A program made the position numbers and the translations under genes. Shown in pieces: positions 50,071 to 64,000 of a DNA stretch of 64,000 bases; the stretch's first letter is position 1, and each line of letters opens with the position of its first letter. The notes under the pieces were generated by a model. That model was not told where the DNA came from and searched no databases. It saw only the letters and a program-made list of their open reading frames with translations. Origin of the DNA: an uncultured Porphyromonadaceae bacterium (lineage in GTDB: Bacteria; Bacteroidota; Bacteroidia; Bacteroidales; Muribaculaceae); assembly GCA_947175425.1 (NCBI GenBank), contig CAMWMR010000008.1:1-64000 (forward strand), in the 5' to 3' direction.

Positions 50071-51330
50071 TTACTGAATGCTCTCTTTGATTTTATCCAC
50101 AATGTAGCGGACGTGGTCGTCGGTAACCCAGGGGCCGGCGGGGAGGCATATGCCTGTGGCGAAGAGTTCTTCGCTCACGCCGTTTACATAGGCGGGGGCG
50201 TTGCGGTAGACGGGCTGTTTGTGCATGGGTTTCCACAAGGGGCGCGATTCAATGTTGGCGGCGTCGAGTGCCATGCGCAAGGCTTCTACATTGTCGTTGG
50301 GCTGGCAGTCGGTTACTGCGGTGCAGGCCGCATGAGTTACTCCTGCGGCGCCGCCCACGGCTCCGGTAATTACCTGTTTATAGGCGTTTTCCTGGCCTTT
50401 GATGCGGAGCGAAGGGTCGAGTGTGGCGGTACAGAGCCAGAAGTTGGAATCGTATTCGGCTCCGGGATTGCAGTGCATTTCTATGCCTTCCACGTCCTTG
50501 AGCAGTTCTTCGTAAAGAGCCTGTACGTGACGGTGGTGGGCGATGTGCTCGTCAACAATTGTCATTTGTCCGCGGCCAATACCGGCGCAGATGTTGCTCA
50601 TGCGGTAGTTGTAGCCTATTGCTTCGTGCTGATAGTAGGGATAGCTTTCGCGTGCCTGGGTGGCATACCACAGGATCTCGCGGGCTTTGTCGGTGTCGGG
50701 ACAGATGAGTGCGCCGCCGCCCGAAGTGGTTATCATTTTGTTGCCGTTGAACGAGAGAACGCCGTACTCGCCGAATGTGCCGAGCGCCTGTCCGTTGAAG
50801 TTTGAGCCGAAACCTTCGGCGCCGTCCTCGATTACGGGGATTTCATAGCGGCGGGCAATCTCCATTATTTTGTCAATCTGATAGGGCATGCCGTAGAGAG
50901 CAACGGGAATAATGGCTTTGGGCTTGCGTCCGGTCTTGGCAATGCGGTCCTTGATTGCTTCTTCGAGCAGTTCGGGATCCATGTTCCATGAGTCTTTTTC
51001 GGAATCGATGAACACGGGTGTTGCGCCAAGGTAGGTGATAGGATGACTGGAGGCGCAGAATGTGAACGACTGCACCAGCACTTCGTCGCCGGCACCAACG
51101 CCACAAGCAATAAGCGCAAGATGCACAGCGGCAGTCCCGGCCGACAGACAAACCACTTTTTTGTCGAGGGCTTCCTTGCCCTCGCGGCGGTTAACAAACT
51201 CTTCCAGGTCGTGCTCGAAACCGGTCACATTCGGCCCCATGGGCACAACCCAGTTGGTATCGAAGGCCTCTTTGATAAAGTCCTGTTCCTTTCCGCTCAT
51301 ATGAGCCAAGCAAAGTAATATCCGTTCCAT
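50071..51330 (-). CDS. DegT/DnrJ/EryC1/StrS-family sugar aminotransferase
   Basis: A 419-residue PLP-dependent aminotransferase. The PLP lysine is in LSFNGNKMITTSGGGALI; other conserved parts are VVCLSAGTAAVHLALIACGV, FIDSEKDSWNMDP and PVIEDGAEGFGSNFNGQALG (PLP-ring Asp). It has the look of PglE/UDP-4-amino-sugar transaminases, which act on UDP-4-keto-6-deoxy-GlcNAc. It starts 5 bp after the phosphoglycosyl transferase gene, a pairing often seen at the 3' end of Bacteroidales capsule loci. The product is probably a 4-amino sugar used as the first residue of the repeat unit. Confidence 0.9.
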   Translation of the reverse strand: MERILLCLAHMSGKEQDFIKEAFDTNWVVPMGPNVTGFEHDLEEFVNRREGKEALDKKVVCLSAGTAAVHLALIACGVGAGDEVLVQSFTFCASSHPITYLGATPVFIDSEKDSWNMDPELLEEAIKDRIAKTGRKPKAIIPVALYGMPYQIDKIMEIARRYEIPVIEDGAEGFGSNFNGQALGTFGEYGVLSFNGNKMITTSGGGALICPDTDKAREILWYATQARESYPYYQHEAIGYNYRMSNICAGIGRGQMTIVDEHIAHHRHVQALYEELLKDVEGIEMHCNPGAEYDSNFWLCTATLDPSLRIKGQENAYKQVITGAVGGAAGVTHAACTAVTDCQPNDNVEALRMALDAANIESRPLWKPMHKQPVYRNAPAYVNGVSEELFATGICLPAGPWVTDDHVRYIVDKIKESIQ

Positions 51331-51335
51331 AGCTT

Positions 51336-51947
51336 TTAAATTATTTCGTTGTTATATTTCATTCTTCGGCCGAGTACGGTGCAGAAAATCATCTGAATAT
51401 CTTTTACAAATGAGTAATTATCAAGATAATAAAGATTTATCCGCACTTTGTCGGGGAAAATTACCGTGTCGTTGTATTTCTGCGGGTCGGGCTGTCGGGC
51501 GAGCAAGTCCTCCTCGTCCCTGTATTTGAGCGATGCCGGGCCTGTTATGCCGGGACGCAGCTCCAGCACCTTCCTGTCGTTTCCTGTGAGACTGTCGGCA
51601 TAGCCCGGCACATCGGGACGAGGGCCTACAAAACTCATATCGCCAATAAGCACATTCCAAAGTTCGGGCAGTTCATCGAGTTTGTAATGACGCAGTTTGG
51701 CGCCGAGGGGCGTTATGCGACTCTCGCCGGCCACGGAAACCGACGAGCCTCCATGCCCTACCGTCATCGAGCGGAATTTGTACATTGTGAACAGACGTCC
51801 GTTGCGCCCGACACGCTTTTGTGTAAAAATCACCGGCCCTCCCGGCATTTTAATACGTATCAGCACGGCCACCACCAAGAGCACCGGCCACAAAACCAAC
51901 AAGCCTATAAGCGCCATAAGCCTGTCGAAGATAAATTTAAGTGTCAT
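51336..51947 (-). CDS. Initiating phosphoglycosyl transferase (PglC/WbaP-like)
   Basis: A 203-residue monotopic phosphoglycosyl transferase. It has one N-terminal hydrophobic re-entrant segment (about 10-30; ALIGLLVLWPVLLVVAVLIR) followed by TMYKFRSMTVGHGG, the catalytic Asp-Glu in YKLDELPELWNVLIGDMSFV and the GPRPDVPGYAD loop. It transfers a sugar phosphate to undecaprenyl phosphate and so starts repeat-unit assembly. It begins immediately after the licD stop. Confidence 0.93.
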   Translation of the reverse strand: MTLKFIFDRLMALIGLLVLWPVLLVVAVLIRIKMPGGPVIFTQKRVGRNGRLFTMYKFRSMTVGHGGSSVSVAGESRITPLGAKLRHYKLDELPELWNVLIGDMSFVGPRPDVPGYADSLTGNDRKVLELRPGITGPASLKYRDEEDLLARQPDPQKYNDTVIFPDKVRINLYYLDNYSFVKDIQMIFCTVLGRRMKYNNEII

Positions 51948-52814
51948 TTAAAACAAATATTTTTCGTCAGATCGGTCCGAATACTCCTGTTGTTCGAGAT
52001 TCCAACATGAAGCATGCTGTTCATACTTGATTCTTTCGGGAGACGGCGGTTTCATATAATCGCCAAATCGCGCAGCGAGGAATCGCTCCAATCCTGCCGC
52101 TACATTAAGTTCTATTGTTTCAAACGGCACTCGTTTTGAATGCACAAAATCCTCATAACGATATTTGCCGTTTTTAAAAAGTGCTTTACCAAGGAAATTA
52201 CAGAAATACGCGGTTTTTGTATCGCGCCAACGATATACCTGTTTTAATCCGAAATCCAACAAGAATCGTTTTGGCAGTATTTTGGCAGCTTTGACAATCA
52301 AGCCTGCCATTCCTCCGCGACGATTATACGGCTTATTGGCAAGCCCCTTGACAATTAAATACTTTGCCCAAATGTATTGCCAACGTTGAGCAAGTGCATT
52401 ATCGGGGCATGTATGCAGTATAAATATATCCACATATACCCCGTGATGAATTTTCCAGCCTTTTATAATTTCTTCTTCGTAGTAAGAGTTATTCAACCGC
52501 AGTTTGGCTGTAATAACACGACCGTTTGAGGCTCCAAGTTCCTGTAACGTATAATTGTTCTTGTCGCCATACTTGTTAAACGCGTCCCGGAACGCTTCGT
52601 ATTCCGACGGAGTCATGAACACATCAAGGTCATCATCCCAAGGAATAAAACCACCATGGCGTTTGGCTCCTAAAGCCGAGCCTCCCATCAAACGGTAATT
52701 GATATCGTGTTCAAAACATAGCCGGTCGATGTACTGTGCAATGTTAAGAATTACATTCTGAAGATCCTTAAGGCCATAGGTATCTTCTGTTTCTGCACGC
52801 ATGAGTTTATTCAT
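51948..52814 (-). CDS. LicD-family phosphotransferase-like protein
   Basis: A 288-residue LicD protein. The N-terminal nucleotidyltransferase-like core has LMGGSALGAKRHGGFIPWDD and WDDDLDVFM with the metal-binding Asp cluster, then KLRLNNSYYEEEII and HHGVYVDIFILHTCPDN. LicD proteins transfer phosphocholine or related phospho-alcohols from CDP-linked donors to surface glycans. The cytidylyltransferase two genes upstream could supply such a donor. It overlaps the preceding gene by 8 bp. Confidence 0.9.
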   Translation of the reverse strand: MNKLMRAETEDTYGLKDLQNVILNIAQYIDRLCFEHDINYRLMGGSALGAKRHGGFIPWDDDLDVFMTPSEYEAFRDAFNKYGDKNNYTLQELGASNGRVITAKLRLNNSYYEEEIIKGWKIHHGVYVDIFILHTCPDNALAQRWQYIWAKYLIVKGLANKPYNRRGGMAGLIVKAAKILPKRFLLDFGLKQVYRWRDTKTAYFCNFLGKALFKNGKYRYEDFVHSKRVPFETIELNVAAGLERFLAARFGDYMKPPSPERIKYEQHASCWNLEQQEYSDRSDEKYLF

Positions 52815-54021
52815 ACTTCATTCTTTTATCCATTACTTTTCTTATTATCTTCCTTAAAAAACCGGGCATACCGTAGTATAGGTCGAATATCCATTGTCGT
52901 TTGGATACAAAATGCGCCTTCACAATATCGTCAAACGACATTGTTTGCAAATCCCGGAATAATTCGGCTCGTTCCGGTTTCATTTTTGTAGGGCCGTGAA
53001 GACATCCATTCTCTCCGGCAACTTGATTAAACGTGAATTCTTTTGTCCATACCTTTTCGACATCAATTATATCGCGCATCAATTCATGACCTTTTTGCGT
53101 GTTTACAAGCACCTCCGAGAGCCCTTGTTTTGGATCCAATGAAGGCTCCAGCTTATCAATACCCCAAAAGTCGCCCAAAGTAATATCGCCGCTTCTTTCA
53201 GAACGCGCCCATTTACATGTATAGCATGACGGGCGCAAAGTAATGTATTTTTGGAACCCGAAATAGAAAGGAAATTGATAATGCAATCCGTTTACGTTCT
53301 TTTGCTTTCCGTTAACGGAACATTGGCATGTAAATGCTTGCGGATGCAGAGCTCCTTTATATTTTGAACGGAATATGAAACGGTTAACCTTGCACTTGTT
53401 CTTTTTTTCAAACCAAGCAATTGATTTATCGAACAAATCCTGCGACGGCACTCCGTGGCATATTAAATCTATTAAATACAGATTTCGGTTTTCACCTACA
53501 TAATTTCGCAAAGCATTACACTGACACGGCGTGCCGCAAAAAAGCGTCAAAGTACCGTTTTTCAAATCCTTTGCAATTTGCTTGAAACAGCCACTTGTAT
53601 CGCTTTGAAGATATTTCGACCGCAACAACGGTTCCAAACCGACTATTGTTGTAGCACATATATGCCTGAGCTGCAGATTATCATCGAATGCCGCACCCCA
53701 TACCTTGCCACCTTTATTTATAACCGATTCTGCAATAAGGCCAAACAGCCCTCCTGACGAGCCAGCTTGCCTTGCTGTGTTCGACAAGGCAAAAGCGGCC
53801 ATAACATTATCCGGAACATTGTTGAAATCCTGTTTCAGCTCGGGGCAAGTTTTTGTACATTTACCACAATGAATACAGGTATCATTATTGACGCATGGAT
53901 AAAGGAATCCCTCGTTATCTTTATTGAAACTAATGCAGGAAACGGGACATACATCACCGCAGGCACGGCAACCGCAGCAATCGTTATGTGGCAGAATACT
54001 GATATTCGGATTATTTGCCAT
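52807..54021 (-). CDS. 4Fe-4S protein, F420 hydrogenase/dehydrogenase beta-like
   Basis: A 404-residue protein. The N-terminus has two 4Fe-4S ferredoxin motifs, CCGCRACGDVCPVSC and CIHCGKCTKTCPEL. The remainder matches the coenzyme F420 hydrogenase/dehydrogenase beta-subunit N and C domains, with AGSSGGLFGLIAESVINKGG, TLFCGTPCQCNALRN and PSCYTCKWARSERSGDITLG (further Cys ligands). Such proteins are recurrent in polysaccharide clusters, usually beside a pyruvyl transferase; none is present here. The reaction is unknown; a reductive sugar modification is one possibility. It overlaps both neighbours (11 bp and 8 bp). Confidence 0.85.
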   Translation of the reverse strand: MANNPNISILPHNDCCGCRACGDVCPVSCISFNKDNEGFLYPCVNNDTCIHCGKCTKTCPELKQDFNNVPDNVMAAFALSNTARQAGSSGGLFGLIAESVINKGGKVWGAAFDDNLQLRHICATTIVGLEPLLRSKYLQSDTSGCFKQIAKDLKNGTLTLFCGTPCQCNALRNYVGENRNLYLIDLICHGVPSQDLFDKSIAWFEKKNKCKVNRFIFRSKYKGALHPQAFTCQCSVNGKQKNVNGLHYQFPFYFGFQKYITLRPSCYTCKWARSERSGDITLGDFWGIDKLEPSLDPKQGLSEVLVNTQKGHELMRDIIDVEKVWTKEFTFNQVAGENGCLHGPTKMKPERAELFRDLQTMSFDDIVKAHFVSKRQWIFDLYYGMPGFLRKIIRKVMDKRMKYE

Positions 54022-54427
54022 TTCGCTCTCTAAGCATTGTAGAGCTTATGCCATCGGTATGAGGCAGAAAAACAACATCTACACCAACGGTTGTGAATTT
54101 TTCCACGTATCCGTTATATAAGTCGGAACCTTTCCATTCACTTCCGTGAAACATAACATCGAAGTTCAAATTTTTCCATGCTTCGAATTTATCCATTGAT
54201 TCCTGGGCAACCACTTCATCGACATAGCATATCGCCTCAACAATTGCAGCCCTGTCGGCAAACGGAATAACCGGTTTATGATGTTTATACGATTCAACAA
54301 CTTCATCGGTACTAACACCAACTATCAGATGTTCACATTGTTCCTTGGCACGACGGAGGATGTTGAGATGACCGATATGGAACATGTCGAACACACCGGT
54401 CGTGTAACCGATTTTATACTTTTTCAT
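54011..54427 (-). CDS. Cytidylyltransferase-family protein (TagD-like)
   Basis: A 138-residue nucleotidyltransferase with the HIGH motif in GVFDMFHIGHLNILRRAKEQ and the KMSKS-equivalent DGISSTMLRER near the C-terminus, as in glycerol-3-phosphate cytidylyltransferase TagD and phosphocholine cytidylyltransferases. It would make a CDP-alcohol such as CDP-glycerol. With LicD two genes downstream it forms a plausible donor-plus-transferase module for a phospho-substituent on the polysaccharide. It overlaps the 4Fe-4S gene by 11 bp. The 120 bp upstream hold no gene. Confidence 0.85.
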   Translation of the reverse strand: MKKYKIGYTTGVFDMFHIGHLNILRRAKEQCEHLIVGVSTDEVVESYKHHKPVIPFADRAAIVEAICYVDEVVAQESMDKFEAWKNLNFDVMFHGSEWKGSDLYNGYVEKFTTVGVDVVFLPHTDGISSTMLRERNGK

Positions 54428-54547
54428 ATTTGATGATTGATTGGTGAGAATAATGTTTCAGGTTATTTCCTGAATTTTCAAGTCGGAGAAATTACATCTG
54501 TTTCTATTATTCTTTTCTCCGGCCTGTTATAAGTTAATGGCAGTAAT

Positions 54548-55378
54548 TTACTTTCGGAACAGCTTTTGAAAGATGAATCCTCGAAGTTTGTTGGGCATGG
54601 CAACCTGTACGGCAAAGCGACCCATTGTGTTATAGGCATAGCGTGGAATAGAAATTATGCCGTTACGGAGCATATACCATTGCAGACGAGCCTCGCTTTT
54701 AAAATATCGCCAGCCGCCGCGACGTTGGTACATTTCTTTCCCAACCCTAACGTTAACGAGGTTCTCCTGAATGTTATGGAATTTATATCCCGCCTGAGCC
54801 AAACGTATCCACAGGTAATAGTCCTCCTCGCAGTACCAGTCGATAAATCCGCCCACGGCCTCTACATCGTTTTTACGGTACATAACCGTAACCAGATTCA
54901 TGGGGCAGCGGCTTTTAAGATATTGCCTGATTTCGTTTTCATTTTCGGGGACTACACGCTCGCCAACTACATTCAAAGGCGTATCTATAAACTCTTTTAT
55001 AAGCCCTCCTATTACCGATACTTCGGGATGCTCCTCGAACGCTTTAAGCTGTACTTCAAAACGTTGAGGCACCGAAATATCATCGGCATCCATAACTGCC
55101 ACAAGATTGTGTGATGCAGCTTCAAGGCCTGCTTGCCGAACTGCCGCATGGCCTTGGTTTTTGCTGAAACGGACGAATTTTATTACTTCAATTTCGTCTT
55201 TTAAAACTCTCAGCGTGGTTTCAAGCTCGTCGGGAATGGGACCGTCAACGACAATTATTATTTCGGAAGGCTTTACACTCTGGTTTGTATATATGCTATG
55301 GACAGCTTCGGCAAAGTCGGGCGCCTTATCGTTGCGATAGACCGCCATACATACCGAGAATTGTTTACAGTCGCTCAT
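54548..55378 (-). CDS. Glycosyltransferase family 2
   Basis: A 276-residue GT-A fold transferase. The N-terminal VCMAVYRNDKAPDFAEAVHS is followed by IIVVDGPIPDELE and the metal-binding LVAVMDADDISVPQRFE (DxD). The C-terminal part carries EEDYYLWIRLAQAGYKFHN, a GT2 ED motif region. It transfers a sugar to the lipid-linked repeat unit at the cytosolic face; sugar and linkage are unknown. Its start overlaps the preceding gene by 4 bp (ATGA). Confidence 0.9.
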   Translation of the reverse strand: MSDCKQFSVCMAVYRNDKAPDFAEAVHSIYTNQSVKPSEIIIVVDGPIPDELETTLRVLKDEIEVIKFVRFSKNQGHAAVRQAGLEAASHNLVAVMDADDISVPQRFEVQLKAFEEHPEVSVIGGLIKEFIDTPLNVVGERVVPENENEIRQYLKSRCPMNLVTVMYRKNDVEAVGGFIDWYCEEDYYLWIRLAQAGYKFHNIQENLVNVRVGKEMYQRRGGWRYFKSEARLQWYMLRNGIISIPRYAYNTMGRFAVQVAMPNKLRGFIFQKLFRK

Positions 55379-56178
55379 CGTTTGCTGAAATATCCTTTAA
55401 TAATATTGATATATGCTTTCAAAGGAGTGATATCGGATTTATAGAAACTGCCATGAGTGAACACCCAATAATTTATATATGCGAATCCGGTTACAGCTCC
55501 CATGGCACGTCGCGATGCCCACCCGATATTTTGAAGATGCGCCGGGGTGTAGCCTTTGAACCATTGGCTTTCGCCGGGATTGACAGTGGCTATGCACTCG
55601 GGCGAATAGTACATAGAGGCACCTGCTCTGCGGAAATCGAGCATGAATTTATTCTCCTCTCCGCCGCCATTACCGGTGCCGCTGCCCATTTTTTCATCGA
55701 AAAGAATTCCGAACTTTTTAAGGCTCGACAGCTTAAATGCAAGCTGAAGCGATGAGGTGTTTAATATTTGCTTGAATTTCAGCGTTTTTTGCTCGGCAGG
55801 GTATATTTTTTTGTTTTTAAGGTCGTTGCGAATCAACGAAAACGCAATAATATCGGCTGTGGGAATACGTGAAAAAGCTCCGGAAATTATTGATTCAATA
55901 TTATCGTGAAAGGTTTCATCGTCATCGGCGAGCAAGCAAATGCTGTTTTCAGGCGCATTCCTCAAAGCCATGTTGCGGCTTCTCGACAGCCCCCGCTCGG
56001 TAGTTGAAATAAACCGACACCACTTTTTTTGCCCGAATTTGTTTGTAAACGTAAAGTCTTCGGTTTTATCAACATCACACTGGTTAACCACAATAATGTT
56101 AGATTGAACGTTACTTCGTTCCAGAATCGAGTGGTCGTGCTGAAACATGCACGACATTAGAATTACAATATCTGCCAT
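55375..56178 (-). CDS. Glycosyltransferase (GT2/GT-A-like)
   Basis: A 267-residue putative glycosyltransferase. The first part reads IIVVNQCDVDKTED and later TERGLSRSRNMALRNAPENS, then CLLADDDETFHDN as the metal-binding acidic motif. GSGTGNGGGEENKFMLDFRR near residue 175 matches the region holding the catalytic base. The N-terminus is less canonical than in the other two GT2 genes. It begins 5 bp after the remnant acyltransferase frame. Confidence 0.8.
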   Translation of the reverse strand: MADIVILMSCMFQHDHSILERSNVQSNIIVVNQCDVDKTEDFTFTNKFGQKKWCRFISTTERGLSRSRNMALRNAPENSICLLADDDETFHDNIESIISGAFSRIPTADIIAFSLIRNDLKNKKIYPAEQKTLKFKQILNTSSLQLAFKLSSLKKFGILFDEKMGSGTGNGGGEENKFMLDFRRAGASMYYSPECIATVNPGESQWFKGYTPAHLQNIGWASRRAMGAVTGFAYINYWVFTHGSFYKSDITPLKAYINIIKGYFSKR

Positions 56179-56183
56179 CGATT

Positions 56184-56348
56184 TTATATATGTAATGCTT
56201 TAGAAGCTGCCGTACGCAGCTGCATAAAAAGGTATGCGAGCAGTAATGACGCGGGAATTGAAAGTACAAGGAAAAGCCACAGAGGAATTTGCCAAAGCTC
56301 CGAAGCTACCGTAAAAAATTTGAAATGGATTAGATAACAGTAAAAGGC
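56184..56348 (-). pseudogene. Remnant of an acyltransferase-3 (OatA-like) gene, C-terminal end
   Basis: In the 218 bp between two glycosyltransferase genes, the minus strand has a 54-codon open frame without its own start, bounded upstream by a TAA at 56349-56351. It reads AFYCYLIHFKFFTVASELWQ, then IPLWLFLVLSIPASLLLAYL and a basic end. This resembles the last two helices of acyltransferase family 3 proteins (YLIH motif, then IPLWLFL..LLLAYLF). The rest of the gene is missing and sequence upstream is AT-rich. I infer deletion of a sugar O-acetyltransferase gene during reshuffling of the locus. Confidence 0.55.
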
Positions 56349-56396
56349 TTATTTACCAATTTTATGTTTGATATTATATGATAAATCTATTATCAA

Positions 56397-57284
56397 TCAA
56401 TTTGTATGTATATGTGATATTAAGCTATTAGCCAAAGGGGTGAAGAACATTTTAGGGGATAACGGCACATAATTAACCAAAATTCTCAGAGCGTCTGTAA
56501 TGTCTTTGTTTTTTAAATAAGACATAAAAACAGACCCATAATGGAATGCGTAACATTTTTTGGCAAATCCCGGTTCTGATAATTCAATTGATTTTATTGC
56601 TTTGTCAAATTTTGACAAGAAATAATTTTTTAGTTCTTCGTAGCGTTTTCCGGATATAATGTTTTCGCCATCATTCACTCCAATTTCAAAAAGCGGTTTT
56701 AGAACAGGAGCAATTAATCCTCCATTTGCAAAATATCGTAACAGCAGTTCGTAGTCCTGATGCCTTTTAAAATTTTCGTCGAATCCACCAATTTTAAGGA
56801 GCGCATTTCGTCGAAACATCAGAGATGGAGTGAACATATAGCTTTTCCCCATGAGTATTTCTCGCGAAAGCGAACCTGCAGGAATATCTGAAGAAATTAA
56901 TAATCCTTTACGAAATCCTTGACAATATACTGCTTCATATTCCGGATGGGACAAAAGAAAATTCCGCTGCAACTCGCATTTTTCGGGGTAAAACCAATCA
57001 TCATCATCAAGAAAAGCAATAAATTCAGCGGATGAAGCAAAAATTCCTGTATTTCTTGCTGCAGCGCCGTTGCGGTTTTCCTGGTGGATAATATATTTAA
57101 CGCGCTTATCGTCTGAGAATTCCTCAATAATTTCAGCAGTTGCTATTTGAGCAGGAGACCCGGCTCCATTATCGTCAACTACAATAATTTCAACATCGCT
57201 GAATGTTTGAGATAGTACGGATTTTATAGCTCTTGCAAGAGCTCCGCGATTTTTATACGTCGGTATTATAACAGAAATTTCCAA
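56397..57284 (-). CDS. Glycosyltransferase family 2
   Basis: A 295-residue GT2 enzyme with a classical N-terminus, MEISVIIPTYKNRGALARAI, then VEIIVVDDNGAGSP, NRNGAAARNTGIFASSAEFI and AFLDDDDWFYPEK (metal-binding). Later GGFDENFKRHQDYELLLRYF carries the catalytic-base region. It probably adds one sugar of the repeat unit. Its start lies inside the last 32 bp of the polymerase gene, an unusually long overlap that keeps both family-typical ends. Confidence 0.93.
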   Translation of the reverse strand: MEISVIIPTYKNRGALARAIKSVLSQTFSDVEIIVVDDNGAGSPAQIATAEIIEEFSDDKRVKYIIHQENRNGAAARNTGIFASSAEFIAFLDDDDWFYPEKCELQRNFLLSHPEYEAVYCQGFRKGLLISSDIPAGSLSREILMGKSYMFTPSLMFRRNALLKIGGFDENFKRHQDYELLLRYFANGGLIAPVLKPLFEIGVNDGENIISGKRYEELKNYFLSKFDKAIKSIELSEPGFAKKCYAFHYGSVFMSYLKNKDITDALRILVNYVPLSPKMFFTPLANSLISHIHTN

Positions 57285-58497
57285 GAGCGCAATATCGATT
57301 AATTGTAAGATACATAAATAACCACAATGGAGCTAATGATATAATCGTTATAGACAAGCATCCAAAGATAAAGTATTGTAAATATAGTATAGGGATTATT
57401 GCAAATGACGGTTGTCTCCTCATTACTATCCACCCCATACGGAAAGTTATAGCATTAATAATCAAGAAAATTATTCCTCCGAATATCCCTAATGCCATAA
57501 ATTGCTCAACAATTATATTATGAACATAAATTTTTCCCGGAATTAGATAGGAACTGCCAAATATCGGATTCCTCAGAAACAGCTCCCAACCTTCATCCAC
57601 AAGAGTATCGCGACCCGAGGTATGATTTTGAAGACCGTCTTCGGCAAATATGGTATTAACAATTCGTTTAAATGGCGTGACACCTATTGAATCAAGATAA
57701 TCACTCAACCAAAAGAACAAGTCCTTTATGAGATCACTAAACAAGCATAGAACAATCAATAAAGCACCCACCCAAATATAACGTGGATTTTGAGCTAACA
57801 AATATATCGCAAGACAAACAAAGAAAGCGACAAACGGGCCGCGAGAGCCGGAAAATCCGATGCATACTCCACTTAAAACAATCCAGCCTATCAAGATAGC
57901 TTTCTGCAACAGATTCGTTTCTTTTAGCAGATATACAGAAATCAGAGCCAATGAACAAGCATATTGTCCAAATGATATAGAAAACACGCCAAAACCGCTA
58001 TCAAACCTGCCATCTCTGGACATATCAACTTCGCCAGCCAAGATTTTTAATACTGACGCAGACATGCAAATAAATAGAATAACCGCACTATACCAAAATA
58101 TTCTTTTGATACTAAAATATGCTACGATGTTTCTAAAATATATAGCCGGCAAAAGCAAACCAAAGAAATAAAAGAAGACTATTGTACTTGGCGATTTATA
58201 TAAGAAAAATCCTTTACCCGGTTCTATAAAATCGACATACAACCGAGCAAAAAGCATTAGCTGATAAACGAATATAAATATCCATATAATGGATTGCTTA
58301 TGCGAAATATTTTTCTTTCTAAATAAAGTAACCACCATCAGACATAGCCCGATAATATATACGGCAATTCTTACAATTGTTTGATCTACAAAACTTCCTG
58401 TATAAGGTACTAATTCCTGACAGAAAAGGATCAAAACGATGTACCCTATTAACCTCCCTGTCCAAGAATTGAACGGAGTTACTTTATGATTTATCAT
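57253..58497 (-). CDS. wzy: O-antigen polymerase/ligase-type membrane protein (Wzy)
   Basis: A 414-residue protein with about ten to twelve transmembrane helices. The Wzy_C/O-antigen-ligase segment is SGSRGPFVAFFVCLAIYLL, and a large extracytoplasmic loop contains GRDTLVDEGWELFLRNPIFG and YVHNIIVEQFMALGIFGGII, the most conserved part of the family. It polymerises repeat units at the periplasmic face. The gene is markedly AT-rich compared with flanking core genes. It overlaps wzx by 4 bp. Confidence 0.85.
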   Translation of the reverse strand: MINHKVTPFNSWTGRLIGYIVLILFCQELVPYTGSFVDQTIVRIAVYIIGLCLMVVTLFRKKNISHKQSIIWIFIFVYQLMLFARLYVDFIEPGKGFFLYKSPSTIVFFYFFGLLLPAIYFRNIVAYFSIKRIFWYSAVILFICMSASVLKILAGEVDMSRDGRFDSGFGVFSISFGQYACSLALISVYLLKETNLLQKAILIGWIVLSGVCIGFSGSRGPFVAFFVCLAIYLLAQNPRYIWVGALLIVLCLFSDLIKDLFFWLSDYLDSIGVTPFKRIVNTIFAEDGLQNHTSGRDTLVDEGWELFLRNPIFGSSYLIPGKIYVHNIIVEQFMALGIFGGIIFLIINAITFRMGWIVMRRQPSFAIIPILYLQYFIFGCLSITIISLAPLWLFMYLTINRYCALGNFCYNTDV

Positions 58498-60014
58498 TTT
58501 AGAAACGGAATGGATGATCTGAGTTTTGATAACTGCTTCTTCTCAAAATCATCTGTTGCAAAAGCAAAAACAAGGAAAATAAAAACAGATGTAAAGAAAA
58601 TGATTTCAATTACAAATATACCCCAAGAGAAGTATAGTCTGTAGACCGACAAATAAAGTATAAACAGGATACATGTAGGCCAAACAACAGGCCAAATGAC
58701 ATTTTTAAACCATTTAAAAATATCGACCCCTATTAGCTTATGCATTATGATTATTCTCATAATCGCCGATATCAGCTCCAATATAGCAAATACCCAAAAC
58801 GCATAAAAAAGTGAAATACGACAATATAAGAGTATCGCAAGAATTGGCAAGACCGCCAACTTAAATGAATCTACCGACAATGAATATCGTTGGAGCTTTC
58901 CATAGGCTTTATTAGCTACGGAAAGTCCGACAGATAAAGAGTCGAAAAAACTGCTTGCCAAAACCACAGTAGTAAATAGCGTTGCTCTTTCAGGAAGCTC
59001 GCCGAGCCACAAAGTTAAAACTTCTTGTAGACGAAAAATTAAAGGTATAGTAACGGCAGCCATCAAAAAAGAGCAAAATTTACTTACAGTACAAGCGAGT
59101 TGAATGGCTAATTCACGATTTCCATTACCTTCAGCTCGAGTCAGCGGAGGCGCAATAGCATTTAAGAGTGCTGCCGAAATATAATTTACACCGCCGCTTA
59201 CTTGTGCGGCTATACCATATGAAGCATTTAATACTGTACCGAAAAACTTATTTATAACTATTGCAACCCCTTGATTCCTACCGATAATGCAAAATGTGGA
59301 ATATAATGCCCACCCGGTGAATGATGTCATTGATCTAATAAAATCCTTGGATAGAACACCTCTGAAGCGTATTGTAAATTCCTCGAATCTAATTCCCGAA
59401 TAAAGAGCAAATGCAATTAAAGTAAATACATTTATTCCAATCATCAGAGTTGCATATAGTATAAGCCTATCACCACTATAATCCAATACAAAAAATGCAA
59501 TCAGAACTTTTAAAACCGCATCTATAATATCGATAAATGAAGTATAAACCAAATTTTCATGAGCTACAAGCAAAGCTCGAAATGGCGTTGTTATTAATGT
59601 TAAAAATACCATTGTAACCGCACAGTGGTAAACTATACGTGCTGAAAACAGTCTGTCTTCAGCAATGTTGAGCCATCCATCCAGCAGAAAAAAACCTACA
59701 CATTCTAAAACAAACAAAGAGATCAAGGCAAACATTAAATGTAAAAACAGACTGTTCGCAAAGGTTTTTTTTATATAATCCAAAGATCTTGAAGCTTGAT
59801 TATAAGAAAGAAAGCGCTGGGTAGTAGCGGAAAGAGCATTATTTAAGAATGACAGCAGCCCGACAATACCCGCCAAGAGCATATAAATTCCATAATCTTC
59901 TTCTCCAAGGCCTTGCAAGATTATTCTTGTGGAATAAAACCCAAGAATAATACCTGCAAAAGTCTTGAGAACCTGCGCTAATGTATTGAGGACTATACGC
60001 GATGACGCTTGCAT
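58494..60014 (-). CDS. wzx: Polysaccharide flippase (Wzx)
   Basis: A 506-residue protein with 12-14 hydrophobic helices, of the MATE/MOP-like polysaccharide export family. The start QASSRIVLNTLAQVLKTFAG, then STRIILQGLGEEDYGIYMLL, is typical of Bacteroidales Wzx. It flips undecaprenyl-linked repeat units across the inner membrane. Strongly AT-rich. It lies 2 bp after the dehydrogenase stop. Confidence 0.93.
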   Translation of the reverse strand: MQASSRIVLNTLAQVLKTFAGIILGFYSTRIILQGLGEEDYGIYMLLAGIVGLLSFLNNALSATTQRFLSYNQASRSLDYIKKTFANSLFLHLMFALISLFVLECVGFFLLDGWLNIAEDRLFSARIVYHCAVTMVFLTLITTPFRALLVAHENLVYTSFIDIIDAVLKVLIAFFVLDYSGDRLILYATLMIGINVFTLIAFALYSGIRFEEFTIRFRGVLSKDFIRSMTSFTGWALYSTFCIIGRNQGVAIVINKFFGTVLNASYGIAAQVSGGVNYISAALLNAIAPPLTRAEGNGNRELAIQLACTVSKFCSFLMAAVTIPLIFRLQEVLTLWLGELPERATLFTTVVLASSFFDSLSVGLSVANKAYGKLQRYSLSVDSFKLAVLPILAILLYCRISLFYAFWVFAILELISAIMRIIIMHKLIGVDIFKWFKNVIWPVVWPTCILFILYLSVYRLYFSWGIFVIEIIFFTSVFIFLVFAFATDDFEKKQLSKLRSSIPFLK

Positions 60015-60016
60015 GA

Positions 60017-61303
60017 TTACAGTCTGCCATCAATAAGTTCACGCGGAAGTACACCTTTCACATCGTAAACCACGCCATCGTCAGAAGATGCAAGGAGAGA
60101 ACGTACATCAAGGGCTTTGAACTCATTATGAGCCACACCAAGAATCACTGTATCAAATTGTCCTTTGAGTTCTTCAAGAGACTTGTCGGTAAGTTCGATT
60201 CCGTACTCGTGCTTAACAGATTCGGGACTTGCCCATGCATCATATACGGTTATGTTATGAGTGTACTCCTCAAGAGTGTGATATATGTCCACAATCTTGG
60301 TGTTTCGTATATCGGGACAGTTTTCTTTAAATGTGATACCAAGCAAAAGGATCTTTGCATCCTTTACTTTCACTCCTTTAAGGTTCATAGCTTTGACTAC
60401 CTGATTGGCTACATATGCGCCCATTCCGTCATTAAGACGACGAGCAGAGAACATAACGCGCGGAAGGACTCCATACACCTGAGCTTTCTGAATCAAGTAA
60501 TATGGGTCAACCGAAATGCAATGTCCGCCTACAAGCCCGGGCGAAAGTTTAATGAAGTTCCATTTTGAGGAGGCGGCTTCTATTACATCGTGAGTATCAA
60601 TACCCATTGCATTAAAAATCTTTGCAAGCTCGTTCATGAATGCTATATTAACATCTCGTTGTGAGTTTTCGATGATTTTAGACGCTTCCGCAACTTTTAT
60701 TGATGGAGCTTTGTGAGTACCGTTGACCAAAACTGAATTATAAACTTCGTCAATGATATCGGCAATTTCCGGAGTTGACCCGGACGTAACTTTTTGAATT
60801 GTTTCCACCGTGTGTAGTTTATCGCCCGGGTTGATACGTTCCGGAGAATATCCTGCATAGAAGTCTTTGTTGAACTTCAATCCGCTTACTCGTTCAACTA
60901 CAGGAAGGCATTCCTCCTCTGTAACCCCTGGATAAACCGTTGACTCATAAACAACGATATCTCCTTTAGAAATGACTTTGCCAACTGTCTCCGATGCACC
61001 CCAAAGCGGCTTAAGATCCGGCCGGTTGTTGTCATCTACAGGAGTTGGAACTGCAACTACATAGAAGTTACAATCACGAATATCATTCAAATTCGTTGTA
61101 CATTTGAACCCATGTTCCTTAATCGCATTTTGAAGAAGTTCATCACTAACTTCTAATGTTGAATCATGGCCGTTGTTTAATGCATCGACACGTTTTTTAT
61201 TCATGTCAAATCCGATTGTTTCGTATTTTGTTGAAAACAATCTTGCCAAAGGCAAGCCGACATAGCCTAAACCAATGACGCAAATTTTTATTGATTTTTC
61301 CAT
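60017..61303 (-). CDS. Nucleotide-sugar 6-dehydrogenase (WbpO/TviB-like)
   Basis: A 428-residue UDP-sugar dehydrogenase, started at the ATG at 61301-61303. The NAD-binding loop is ICVIGLGYVGLPLARLF; the catalytic Cys is in GLVGGHCISVDPYYLIQK; other conserved parts are VAVPTPVDDNNRPDL, YESTVYPGVTEEECLP and LLGITFKENCPDIRNTKIVD. TviB/WbpO oxidise UDP-GlcNAc or UDP-GalNAc to the uronic acid, so the surface polymer probably contains an acidic sugar. No epimerase partner is present in the window. A 76-bp leader with a T-rich palindrome at 61313-61335 precedes it. Confidence 0.9.
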   Translation of the reverse strand: MEKSIKICVIGLGYVGLPLARLFSTKYETIGFDMNKKRVDALNNGHDSTLEVSDELLQNAIKEHGFKCTTNLNDIRDCNFYVVAVPTPVDDNNRPDLKPLWGASETVGKVISKGDIVVYESTVYPGVTEEECLPVVERVSGLKFNKDFYAGYSPERINPGDKLHTVETIQKVTSGSTPEIADIIDEVYNSVLVNGTHKAPSIKVAEASKIIENSQRDVNIAFMNELAKIFNAMGIDTHDVIEAASSKWNFIKLSPGLVGGHCISVDPYYLIQKAQVYGVLPRVMFSARRLNDGMGAYVANQVVKAMNLKGVKVKDAKILLLGITFKENCPDIRNTKIVDIYHTLEEYTHNITVYDAWASPESVKHEYGIELTDKSLEELKGQFDTVILGVAHNEFKALDVRSLLASSDDGVVYDVKGVLPRELIDGRL

Positions 61304-61379
61304 TAAAATATGTTTTTTTGTCGTATACAAAAAAATGAACTAATGTATTCGTATTAAATTTTTGAGGGATTAGAGTTAT

Positions 61380-62201
61380 TCAGCGTTGGGTAAGGTGCTC
61401 GTTGTTGAAGCGGAGGGCGAGGGCGAAGGCCTGACGTTCGCAGGGATGAAGTTCGGGGCGCGATGACAGTTCAAGGAGTATGTGATTATCAACTGCAAGC
61501 TGTTCGTCGAACTCCATTAAACCGGGATACAGGGAACTGATAAAGCTGCGATAGCTGCGAAGAATATTTGTTCCTATGCCGGAAAAGTCGGACAGTTGAT
61601 TGCAGTCGCACCACCGGCGTTTATCTGCTTCAGAAACCGCCTCGGTATCCTTATATAAATCCAGCCGCATTATTATTGCAAGTCGGCGATAGTTTTCGGC
61701 TTTTGTTGCATCGGGGAAGTAATAATGGAGCTGAAGTGTGGTTAACCATTTATTTTTAAGCGAGTTGTAAGCTTCCGAATACTCTCCGGGAGCTTTTTCG
61801 GGCATATATTCTACAAGAGGATATACAATATCGAAAATTACGCTTTCATCTATTTCCCGATTTCCGTTTTTCCATGCCTTGAACACTTGCGCGGAGCAAC
61901 GGTCGATAAAATTTAAATCGGGAAGGCGTTTATATCCAATGCGATATATGATGTTATAGCATTCGAGCAACTCGGGGATGTCGTTTTCTCTACACACCGA
62001 TAATTGCTTGTATATTCTGCTGCTTAGAGTTCGGCACTCCTCTGCTATTTCCGACTCTTGCTGTGTGGCAATATGTCCGTCCTCGATAAGGCATCCGGCC
62101 AATTGCCCTTTCATAATAATATAATGTGAATATGCTTTAAGCTCATTCACACTTTCTGTTTTTATTTTTAGGAGAGACATCGATTCTACAGCCACGCGCA
62201 T
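61380..62201 (-). CDS. Unrecognised protein in the UpxZ position
   Basis: A 273-residue soluble protein; I start it at 62199-62201 (MRVAVESMSLLKIKTESVNE), 25 bp after upxY, because the longer reading overlaps upxY by 50 bp. It is largely helical, with Cys, Trp and Leu-rich segments such as LLECYNIIYRIGYKRLPDLN and GIGTNILRSYRSFISSLYPG. In Bacteroides, upxY is followed by upxZ, whose product inhibits UpxY proteins of other capsule loci. UpxZ is about 160 residues, so this longer protein may be a distant relative, an extended form, or something else. I see no enzyme motif. Confidence 0.6.
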   Translation of the reverse strand: MRVAVESMSLLKIKTESVNELKAYSHYIIMKGQLAGCLIEDGHIATQQESEIAEECRTLSSRIYKQLSVCRENDIPELLECYNIIYRIGYKRLPDLNFIDRCSAQVFKAWKNGNREIDESVIFDIVYPLVEYMPEKAPGEYSEAYNSLKNKWLTTLQLHYYFPDATKAENYRRLAIIMRLDLYKDTEAVSEADKRRWCDCNQLSDFSGIGTNILRSYRSFISSLYPGLMEFDEQLAVDNHILLELSSRPELHPCERQAFALALRFNNEHLTQR

Positions 62202-62226
62202 TTTATCGACGGAGCTATAAATTAGT

Positions 62227-62859
62227 TTAGGAGAGTATTTTTTCGACGTCAGCGGGGTCGATGAATACAGTGGCACCGCCTAACACCGAGAGACTTACTA
62301 CAAGGCAGTGTGTGCCGTCGGAGTTTTTTCGTATAATGCCTTCGAGTCCGCGGAAGCTTCCTCGAATAACCCTCACAGTATCTTTTTCTTTAAAAGAAGC
62401 CGGGATAAAGTCGACCGGATAGTCCGACTGCCCGAGCATAAATCTTAATTTGCTAATTTCGGCATTGCCAATCACCGCAACCGGTTTGTTGAGCGAACCT
62501 GTTTCGGCAGTTCTATTTACCATAAAACGGTTAATATACGGCAATGTAACAATTCTGCGACGCTCTTTTTCGGTACACCTTACGAAAACCATTGCCGGAA
62601 TAACAACGCGTTCAACCATTTTACGGCGTCCGTTATTCCACACACGCATTTCCTGCTGTGTGGCAACATAAGTTTCTATATTAATATCCTTGAGTTTCTC
62701 GGCGACTTTTTTCTCGTGGCGGGCGTTAACGATTGCCACAAACCACTTGATTTCGGGCACGCCTACGGCGTCGTCAACGCCCGAGGGCACTGTCGCAAGA
62801 GAAGGTTTTGAAGGTTTATCTTCTGACGCAGTTAACATTTCAGCTAATGTCGCCTTCAT
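62227..62859 (-). CDS. upxY: UpxY-family NusG-like antiterminator
   Basis: A 210-residue protein. After a variable N-terminus of about 36 residues comes an NGN domain (IKWFVAIVNARHEKKVAEKL, then RRKMVERVVIPAMVFVRCTE) and a C-terminal KOW motif (FKEKDTVRVIRGSFRGLEGI). UpxY proteins travel with RNA polymerase and prevent premature termination in their own capsule operon. It is the first gene of the polysaccharide locus, and its ATG is 1 bp from the left inverted repeat of the putative invertible promoter. Confidence 0.92.
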   Translation of the reverse strand: MKATLAEMLTASEDKPSKPSLATVPSGVDDAVGVPEIKWFVAIVNARHEKKVAEKLKDINIETYVATQQEMRVWNNGRRKMVERVVIPAMVFVRCTEKERRRIVTLPYINRFMVNRTAETGSLNKPVAVIGNAEISKLRFMLGQSDYPVDFIPASFKEKDTVRVIRGSFRGLEGIIRKNSDGTHCLVVSLSVLGGATVFIDPADVEKILS

Positions 62860-62860
62860 G

Positions 62861-62877
62861 ATCTCTTTTTAAGAGAT
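62861..62877 (+). repeat. Left inverted repeat of the putative invertible promoter
   Basis: ATCTCTTTTTAAGAGAT, 17 bp. It is the exact reverse complement of the copy at 63044-63060. Each copy has 7-bp palindromic half-sites (ATCTCTT/AAGAGAT) around a 3-bp core, TTT here and AAA in the other copy, so the core alone defines direction. Confidence 0.85.
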
Positions 62878-63043
62878 TGTGATTGATAAAAGGAATTTGA
62901 TTGACAATGGTTTAAACATTACTTTTTGAGCATTTGCAAAACAATGTCATATCTAAGTAGTTGTCCTCCAGTATTCTGACAATATTTTATTTGGGGAAAG
63001 CTGTCATTCCAAATATTTTGTGTAACTTTGCAAAAAATTAAGT
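62878..63043. promoter_or_regulatory. Putative invertible promoter segment (phase switch) of the polysaccharide locus
   Basis: A 166-bp AT-rich segment without genes, bounded by two 17-bp inverted repeats and directly upstream of upxY. It contains one clear -7 box, TAACTTTG at 63023-63030 on the plus strand, and none on the minus strand. This is the arrangement of the Mpi-controlled invertible promoters of Bacteroides fragilis capsule loci. If the whole 62861-63060 unit flipped, the box would fall at 62891-62898 pointing at upxY, giving a start site about 25 nt before the upxY ATG. In the orientation seen here it points away, so upxY would be OFF. No recombinase gene is in the window. Inversion itself is inferred. 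Confidence 0.75.
63023..63030 (+). promoter_or_regulatory. -7 box of the invertible promoter (OFF direction)
   Basis: TAACTTTG within GTGTAACTTTGCA, the common Bacteroidetes -7 context. A TTTG at the usual -33 distance is lacking (GCTG at 19-bp spacing). It lies 13 bp inside the right inverted repeat. Confidence 0.6.
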
Positions 63044-63060
63044 ATCTCTTAAAAAGAGAT
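63044..63060 (+). repeat. Right inverted repeat of the putative invertible promoter
   Basis: ATCTCTTAAAAAGAGAT, the exact reverse complement of 62861-62877. Homology stops at the 17-bp boundary on both sides, which argues for a defined recombination site and not a degraded duplication. Confidence 0.85.
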
Positions 63061-63469
63061 TATTAAAAAAATTATAACGACTGCAGGGCTTCTATACAGA
63101 ACAGCTAAACGGCTGCTTTCCATTATAATATCACGACAAACGCTTGGGTCCAATGTAATAGCATCATTGGAGATGTACTGCTTATCCTAATCGGAGTGTC
63201 GTTCCCGTAATCATGGTATACTAAAGAGCAATATTGGTTATTACCTGTAGAATTACGGTATTAATTTTGCAACGGTCAGGAAATAAGTGAAATTTTTACC
63301 GTAAAAAATGATGCAATTTATCCTGTCTGACTTGATATATTTGCAGGATATTGCACACGCATTATCCTGCATATTATGTGTTTTAATAGATTTTAATACT
63401 TTTAGCAACAAATAAACCCAGAAAGATTCATAAATTCGCAAACTAATCATAATAAGCCAAATCATACCA
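63061..63469. other. Gene-free region with two dyads before the 4Fe-4S gene
   Basis: About 410 bp without a convincing gene. It contains a second plus-strand -7-like box, TAATTTTG (63262-63269), an inverted repeat TTACGGTA/TACCGTAA (63253-63260 and 63297-63304) around that box, and a tighter dyad TGCAGGATA/TATCCTGCA (63342-63350 and 63363-63371). TTATCCTG occurs at 63318-63325 and again at 63362-63369. A further weak box, TACTTTTA, lies at 63397-63404. Confidence 0.5.
63342..63371 (+). promoter_or_regulatory. Dyad, possible operator of the 4Fe-4S gene
   Basis: A perfect 9-bp inverted repeat (TGCAGGATA and TATCCTGCA) separated by 12 bp. It lacks a T run, so it is not a terminator. It lies about 100 bp upstream of the start at 63470 and just ahead of the weak -7 box at 63397. 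The regulator is unknown. Confidence 0.4.
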
Positions 63470-64000
63470 TGTTACAACGACTACGACGATCGCTCGCAGT
63501 GATTTTCTTCGTATTAATTACCCTGCTCTTCCTTGATTTTACGGGTACAATACACCGCTGGTTCGGTTGGATGGCTAAAATCCAGTTCCTTCCGGCACTT
63601 CTGGCACTCAATGCAGGGGTAATCCTGTTTCTCGTGGGAATAACTCTTGTATTTGGACGTGTATATTGCTCTGTAATATGCCCCTTGGGAGTTATGCAGG
63701 ACGGTTTCGGGCTGCTAGGAAAAAAAGTGAAGAAGAATCGCTACAGCTATTCCAAACCCAAAACAATCCTGAGGTATACGCTGCTCGCACTAATGGCAGC
63801 AGCAATTATTTTGGGAGTTAATTCATTTGTAGCACTGCTGGCACCCTACAGCGCATACGGACGCATAGCACAAAGCTTTTTGGCTCCTGTATGGCAATGG
63901 GGCAACAACATGCTTGCCGTATGGGCGGAGGCTCACGAGAGTTATGCGTTCTATACCGTGGACATATGGCTCAAGGGAGGTATCACTCTCGGTGTGGCGG
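63470..64000 (+). CDS. Membrane 4Fe-4S protein (NapH/NosR/CcoG-like), N-terminal part
   Basis: The frame runs from the ATG at 63470 to the window end (177 residues seen, incomplete). There are at least three hydrophobic helices (about 9-27, 41-62 and 100-125). The motif FGRVYCSVICPLGVMQDG (CxxxCP) matches the transmembrane polyferredoxin family of NapH, NosR and RdxA/CcoG, in which this Cys pair precedes ferredoxin-type clusters farther on. It may pass electrons from the quinone pool to a periplasmic or membrane partner. The ferredoxin domain expected downstream is outside the window, so the subfamily cannot be set. Confidence 0.75.

Follow-up and report, generated by a model that had tools for sequence, protein, structure and literature searches.

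Promoter inversion at capsule loci has been described for Bacteroides intestinalis and B. fragilis, and in B. intestinalis the approximate transcription start was placed inside the proximal repeat (PMC8375218). UpxY acts in general as the antiterminator of its own polysaccharide locus, and in Phocaeicola vulgatus CL10 the promoter of a PS locus was detected in both orientations by PCR, while quantitatively almost all of it was ON; the local recombinase is defective, and the authors infer that another one acts (PMC13114119). In B. fragilis, a single tyrosine recombinase, BF2766/Tsr19, inverts two promoters, that of a polysaccharide locus close by and that of a surface protein at a distance (PMC4747536). 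The plasmid pMMCAT has been termed conjugative and is included in a published invertase tree (PMC8748976), so that the enzyme family discussed below is known in outline; pMMCAT was typed as non-mobilizable by MOB-suite. Inverton group 137 of the hCom2 community is linked to UpxY, fimbrillin and site-specific integrase genes, comes mostly from Bacteroidota, and has a repeat motif that was called novel (PMC11892184).

The window analysed here is a stretch of 64,000 nucleotides (C8:1-64000) from the genome of an uncultured Muribaculaceae bacterium, assembled as 2.50 Mb in 64 contigs. A preliminary description of this DNA had claimed exact 17-bp inverted repeats around a 166-bp gene-free gap, with a single -7 box that a flip would bring close to the upxY ATG, and this layout was reproduced (Table 1). 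The repeats ATCTCTTTTTAAGAGAT and ATCTCTTAAAAAGAGAT are exact reverse complements and the sole exact 17-bp inverted pair with 100-400 bp spacing in the 64-kb window; 60 Markov-1 simulations of 64 kb produced 0 such pairs. A looser scan (arms of at least 16 bp, up to 600 bp) added two pairs in the window, the arms overlapping in both. Both 17-mers are near-palindromic (6-5-6), so that direction is set by the centre alone. None of the ORFs of at least 80 aa listed for 52000-64000 lies within the segment. The single outward box is of the TAnnTTTG type and is predicted to lie at 62891-62898 after inversion, 32-39 bp upstream of the upxY start codon (ATG 62859-62857, minus strand), from which the proximal arm is one base off. 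Because the box points away from upxY as assembled, the assembled state is read as OFF, a point absent from the preliminary description. Judged by eye, the segment holds no convincing -33 element; no strong structure was predicted when 63030-63200 was folded as RNA (z -1.62), and a stretch from inside the segment had 0 matches in viral_contigs. In its OFF orientation the promoter faces the 4Fe-4S gene, 408 bp past the distal site, whose ORF spans 3470-4945 on the fetched locus L007.

The position directly before upxY and the polysaccharide locus behind it, both claimed earlier, were borne out by family models. The upxY gene passes the NCBIfam UpxY model NF033644 with 113.8 bits (cut-off 100), and a Pfam scan of ten downstream minus-strand genes placed 10/10 in families typical of polysaccharide loci. 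The locus encodes a nucleotide-sugar dehydrogenase, a 506-aa protein that had no family match, a Wzy_C protein, glycosyltransferases and a cytidylyltransferase-like protein, together with FrhB/FdhB-like, LicD, sugar transferase and DegT aminotransferase proteins. The 298-aa second gene had no Pfam or NCBIfam match; phmmer found related ORFs in 7 loci, the window counted, and it is possibly the counterpart of UpxZ. The parts of an upxY-type capsule promoter that are present include exact inverted repeats around a short non-coding segment, a TAnnTTTG box placed to serve upxY after inversion and a downstream polysaccharide locus; the opposite orientation was found at related loci.

Table 1 Features of the putative promoter switch, its neighbourhood in the window, and related elements elsewhere in the same genome. 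Positions without a contig name refer to the window.
Feature	Position	Strand	Remarks
upxY-proximal putative recombination site, ATCTCT-TTTTA-AGAGAT	62861..62877	+	exact inverted copy of 63044-63060
upxY-distal putative recombination site, ATCTCT-TAAAA-AGAGAT	63044..63060	+	exact inverted copy of 62861-62877
Proximal 5-bp core, putative strand-exchange region	62867..62871	.	matches mate at positions 7-11
Distal 5-bp core	63050..63054	.	reverse complement of proximal core
Inner 166 bp of putative invertible segment	62878..63043	.	ORFs of at least 80 aa: 0
-7 box TAACTTTG	63023..63030	+	30 bp inside segment end, outward, away from upxY
upxY, NusG-like antiterminator, first gene of polysaccharide locus	62227..62859	-	PF02357; NF033644
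Second gene, 298 aa	61380..62276	-	overlaps upxY end
Polysaccharide locus	50071..61330	-	Pfam
4Fe-4S (Fer4_5) gene	63469..64000	+	PF12801; runs past window edge
Second switch of same site class	C16:3316-3518 (L005)		before DUF3575-DUF3868-Fimbrillin_C-Mfa2 (type V pilus) operon; OFF
Lone site	C47:16366-16382 (L006 6367-6383)		next to recombinase cut by contig end
Full-length family recombinase, 401 aa	C1:25271-26473		after Wzz/tyrosine-kinase-like gene
Second family recombinase, C-terminal piece	end of C47		reads toward lone C47 site

We consider, with a probability of roughly 90%, that the segment at 62861-63060 is a site-specific invertible promoter, OFF as assembled, that is flipped in trans by a tyrosine recombinase. 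The mechanism in this strain, as read from the DNA, would be as follows. In each ATCTCT-N5-AGAGAT site, the 6-bp arms would be bound by a tyrosine recombinase and the central 5 bp would be where it exchanges strands, which requires the two cores to match. Inversion would turn the -7 box toward upxY; transcription in this ON orientation should begin near the proximal repeat, and UpxY would then antiterminate its own polysaccharide locus. As assembled, with the promoter directed away from upxY, the locus should be OFF. The enzyme would be supplied in trans, with the full-length family member on contig C1 or the truncated one on contig C47 as candidates.

The window repeats are members of a site class, ATCTCT-N5-AGAGAT, made of these arms and a matched inverted 5-bp core, and the class is spread across Bacteroidales. 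In the window's own genome, the 17-mer (free 3-bp centre, at most 2 mismatches) was found at 8 places, compared with 1 for the reversed control pattern. Five of the sites are the two window arms, the two ends of a second switch (C16:3316-3332 and C16:3502-3518) and a lone site (C47:16366); the remaining 3/8 carry 1-2 mismatches and have no mate in that list. The pair pattern with a free centre gave segments in 45/397 genomes of the family Muribaculaceae, and the control pattern 0 among the matches listed. The named genome collection contributed 105 stretches, whose titles are mostly Bacteroidales, with one Bacillus record; five metagenome-assembled records with pairs are titled Clostridia, Clostridium, Roseburia or Pseudoflavonifractor. 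Among the literature matches listed, the 17-bp motif appeared in none of the passages covered.

Duplicate removal among the fetched loci left 115 unique segments. The search pattern had left the 3-bp centre free, and the centres proved to be inverted copies of each other in 114/115 pairs (chance 1/64 each if independent; the 114 are partly non-independent, many Phocaeicola pairs being paralogues of one centre type). With reverse complements pooled, 22 centre types occur among the 114. The sole mismatch, in Bacillus australimaris (L144), belongs to a segment from which the -7 box is absent. Under a looser 6-5-6 arm pattern that also demanded a -7 box, the central 5 bp (positions 7-11) matched in 124/128 pairs; of the four misfits, L186, L188 and L190 pair sites of two adjacent segments, and L132 is an internal chance match. 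Deviations from the consensus at the core edges were mostly shared by both mates (position 7, 7/11, the other 4 being the misfits; position 11, 4/4; pooled 11/15), whereas those at the outer positions were mostly not (position 1, 0/7; position 2, 1/6; position 16, 1/3; position 17, 1/3; pooled 3/19). This difference is the pattern expected from strand exchange within the central bases, and from it we infer the width of the exchange region at sites of the class.

We do not claim that cores serve as general barcodes, as the segments of P. massiliensis and P. faecalis are largely of one centre type (AGT/ACT); two genomes, G407 and G112, are each listed with two same-centre segments. At the P. massiliensis and P. 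faecalis loci (L043, L071, L103 and others), many segments per genome share this centre, and most Muribaculaceae genomes with several segments have no such common centre. Given the common centre, recombination across loci might occur in these two species. Separately, L186, L188, L190, L212 and L213 hold two tandem segments, or sites of two, near one recombinase, and their cores differ.

Opposite orientations were observed at related loci. In two Muribaculaceae metagenome-assembled genomes (L057 and L142), the segments are identical at 205/215 positions only if one of them is inverted, while the left flanks match in the same orientation (233/295) and the right flanks agree at 166/238 positions where they align. 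A comparison of loci listed 12 locus pairs as flipped, which correspond to 8 loci, 3 of them second copies of the same contigs, and hence to 5 distinct places. On pMMCAT, copies from B. cellulosilyticus and B. uniformis CL06T06C18 (L212 and L214) share a segment that reaches 216/216 identity only after one copy is inverted; the segment next to it is unflipped (214/214), and one other mismatch was found in 1301 bp. Among the 20 plasmid records that matched the pMMCAT query, 18 cover at least 80%, of which 17 align in one piece and 1 in two; the letter-by-letter comparison was made for the two-piece record. The arms of the flipped plasmid segment are TTTCTC-N5-GAGAAA, unlike ATCTCT-N5-AGAGAT.

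Same-genus loci were collected by searching 49 genomes with the window DNA, and 29 other loci plus the window were examined. A upxY match was present in 12 of these 30, and 7/12 have a site pair, with 6 OFF (L007, which is the window, L157, L169, L171, L172 and L179) and 1 ON (L168 in genome G017, whose UpxY is 48% identical to that of the window). The ON locus contradicts a single orientation throughout the relatives, a possibility that the preliminary description had raised against its own reading. In L168, L171 and L179 the arms are off the consensus by at least one base, and G017 was site-negative by the strict pattern yet bears the ON switch. Two further loci are arranged ON with a near site only: a contig end truncates L167, and in L153 the near site has one mismatch and was read by eye. 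A second such possibility, that relatives keep the promoter but lack the repeats, is seen at 2/12 upxY loci: L158 and L165 have the TAACTTTG box before upxY and no inverted sites within 290 bp, and their promoters are apparently fixed at the equivalent place. The twelfth upxY locus, L156, is cut.

Placement of the promoter box is likewise conserved across the class. In 108/114 segments, one end has an outward TAnnTTTG box 25-45 bp inside it, compared with 3.9 expected from mononucleotide shuffles, and the commonest distance from the segment end is 30-32 bp. The ON/OFF states could be assigned for 47/114 segments, those with a placed -7 box, one neighbour gene reading away and the other toward the segment. 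In 11 of these the promoter is directed at the gene that reads away, in 36 it is directed the other way, so both states occur and OFF is the commoner in assemblies. Matched cores, opposite orientations at related loci and conserved box placement together support the invertible promoter that had been proposed.

The genes served by these switches were surveyed with a longest-ORF approximation of gene calling. Among 131 outward-reading neighbour genes, 105 were run through Pfam, the 26 outside the census being in many cases long or cut by locus ends; the 105 comprise 23 with an AraC-type HTH, 17 with NusG and 4 with DUF3575. In Phocaeicola, the switch is followed by an AraC-like gene of about 165 aa and then by a large lipoprotein with the near-constant N-terminus MNKKFLSAILFGALM (L043, L046, L050, L066, L071, L086, L103 and L125); in L133 the lipoprotein is present and the small regulator was not called. 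Two such lipoproteins were scanned, and one gave a weak DUF4988 match below the cut-off, the other no match. These lipoproteins may resemble the BT1927 S-layer family.

The likely enzyme for the window segment, judged by gene neighbourhood, belongs to the tyrosine recombinase family that is seen beside sites of the class. Near the segments, 17 ORFs of one such family score above 100 bits. Of these, 16/17 read toward the segment, 15 ending within 526 bp of it and one at 1310 bp, and the remaining ORF, a fragment of 130 aa, lies where its locus ends. An enzyme is in view beside 16/114 segments, a count bounded by the limited length of the fetched flanks, and among inward-reading neighbours of 250 aa or more, 14/45 match PF13102. 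On the contig of the window, the search for PF13102 recombinases found none, which means that the recombinase would act in trans. In a tree, the C1 and C47 members of the same genome group with the site-linked enzymes and two others, on C4 and C43, fall outside (support 96/99, with a long-branch warning). The C1 recombinase is an open 401-aa frame with ARHSW and GH...Y boxes; the 4.2-kb locus around it contains no sites at up to 2 mismatches. The N-terminal part of the C47 recombinase was not found elsewhere in the assembly. We compared 56 chosen genomes, in which recombinase presence tracks site presence weakly: at E <= 1e-40, the family occurs in 27/28 genomes with strict site pairs and in 21/28 without, the 28 site-negatives having been picked by hand. 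No family recombinase was seen in the site-positive genome G193, and 4/10 inspected site-negative recombinase loci bear near-matching pairs that the strict pattern missed.

The same genome holds a second switch of the class in front of a type V pilus operon. Its layout is that of the window, TAACTTTGCAAAAAATTTTAAGC and then the site, pointing away from the pilus operon, so that the genome carries this class of switch at two loci, one capsule-type and one encoding a type V pilus. One enzyme may drive both. The cores are TTTTA at upxY, TAGTA at the pilus operon and TATCA at the lone C47 site. At the lone site the palindrome continues into TTTGGAT on either side, and its flank GTTTAGCAATCATCCAAATCTCTT is common to the outer flank of the C16 switch. 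The lone site could conceivably be a scar left by excision of a segment, a weak reading because other segments too have the TTTGGAT arm, on their inner side. As a tentative scheme, to which we give somewhat less than even odds, a single remote tyrosine invertase would switch capsule and pilus, the locus-specific cores would confine recombination within pairs, and the C47 site would be an excision scar.

The same recombinase data bear on whether the promoter, once invertible, is now locked OFF with its cognate recombinase damaged or lost. The truncated C47 member, cut by a contig end, its N-terminal part absent elsewhere in the assembly, fits this, as does the lack of a site beside the C1 recombinase; the CL10 upxY switch, almost all ON with its defective local recombinase, would be a precedent (PMC13114119). 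However, the C1 frame is open with its ARHSW and GH...Y boxes, the window sites and cores are still perfect, and CL10 still showed both orientations by PCR (PMC13114119), so we regard a locked promoter as unlikely. An Mpi-type promoter, which a serine recombinase would invert as it does at the capsule loci of B. fragilis, would share the place before upxY, a similar segment size and the inversion reported in B. intestinalis and B. fragilis (PMC8375218). It is nevertheless very improbable: the window site does not resemble ARACGTTCGTN, the Mpi repeat (PMC8375218), a PF00239 search of the assembly (2.50 Mb, completeness listed as 99.99%) found 0 serine recombinases while 10/14 control genomes were positive, and the class segments have PF13102 tyrosine recombinases among their inward-reading neighbours (14/45). 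A recombinase other than Mpi had been suspected from the repeat, and these data agree with it. Least probable of all is that the palindromes are operators of a dimeric regulator beside a fixed promoter reading away from upxY toward the 4Fe-4S gene, which would suit near-palindromic 17-mers and a promoter that as assembled aims at 63469, 408 bp past the distal site, but operators require no mated inverted cores that vary by locus, and flipped segments are known at related loci. The invertible promoter, flipped in trans by a tyrosine recombinase, is therefore the reading that we retain.

This reading yields ATCTCT-N5-AGAGAT with mated cores as a code for site searches, and the code occurs before upxY, pilus and Phocaeicola AraC-like regulator and lipoprotein genes. 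The core rule predicts which switches can recombine together, and expression of this capsule locus may escape detection in a population that is mostly OFF.

Among described systems, the hCom2 group 137 can be compared with the window by its gene links rather than by its motif, and we would guess that it is the same class as the window site (PMC11892184). The CL10 promoter is like that of the window in having inverted repeats and a -7 box before upxY, a likeness of layout, its repeat letters standing outside the comparison (PMC13114119). The Mpi-controlled PS promoters of B. fragilis are also inverted in front of upxY-headed capsule loci; they differ in their serine recombinase and in their repeat ARACGTTCGTN (PMC8375218), and neither this repeat in the window nor a genomic serine recombinase in its genome was found. 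The two BF2766/Tsr19 switches, IVp-I and IVp-II, are like the two switches of this genome in concept, a comparison that does not extend to the site letters (PMC4747536); here, in contrast, the second switch lies before a type V pilus operon and no family member was found beside either switch. On pMMCAT (NZ_CP072253.1 and NZ_CP072238.1), the recombinase reads toward the segments, belongs to the same family and is identical to the C1 member at 202/407 positions (50%). The plasmid's matched-core sites and its segments before upxY and polysaccharide genes are also like those of the window, whereas its arms (TTTCTC/GAGAAA), its two tandem segments, its adjacent recombinase gene and its plasmid location are not. 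The finding thus extends the known promoter-inversion switches of surface polysaccharides to a Muribaculaceae genome, with a site class that is not of Mpi type and, most probably, an enzyme class that is not either.
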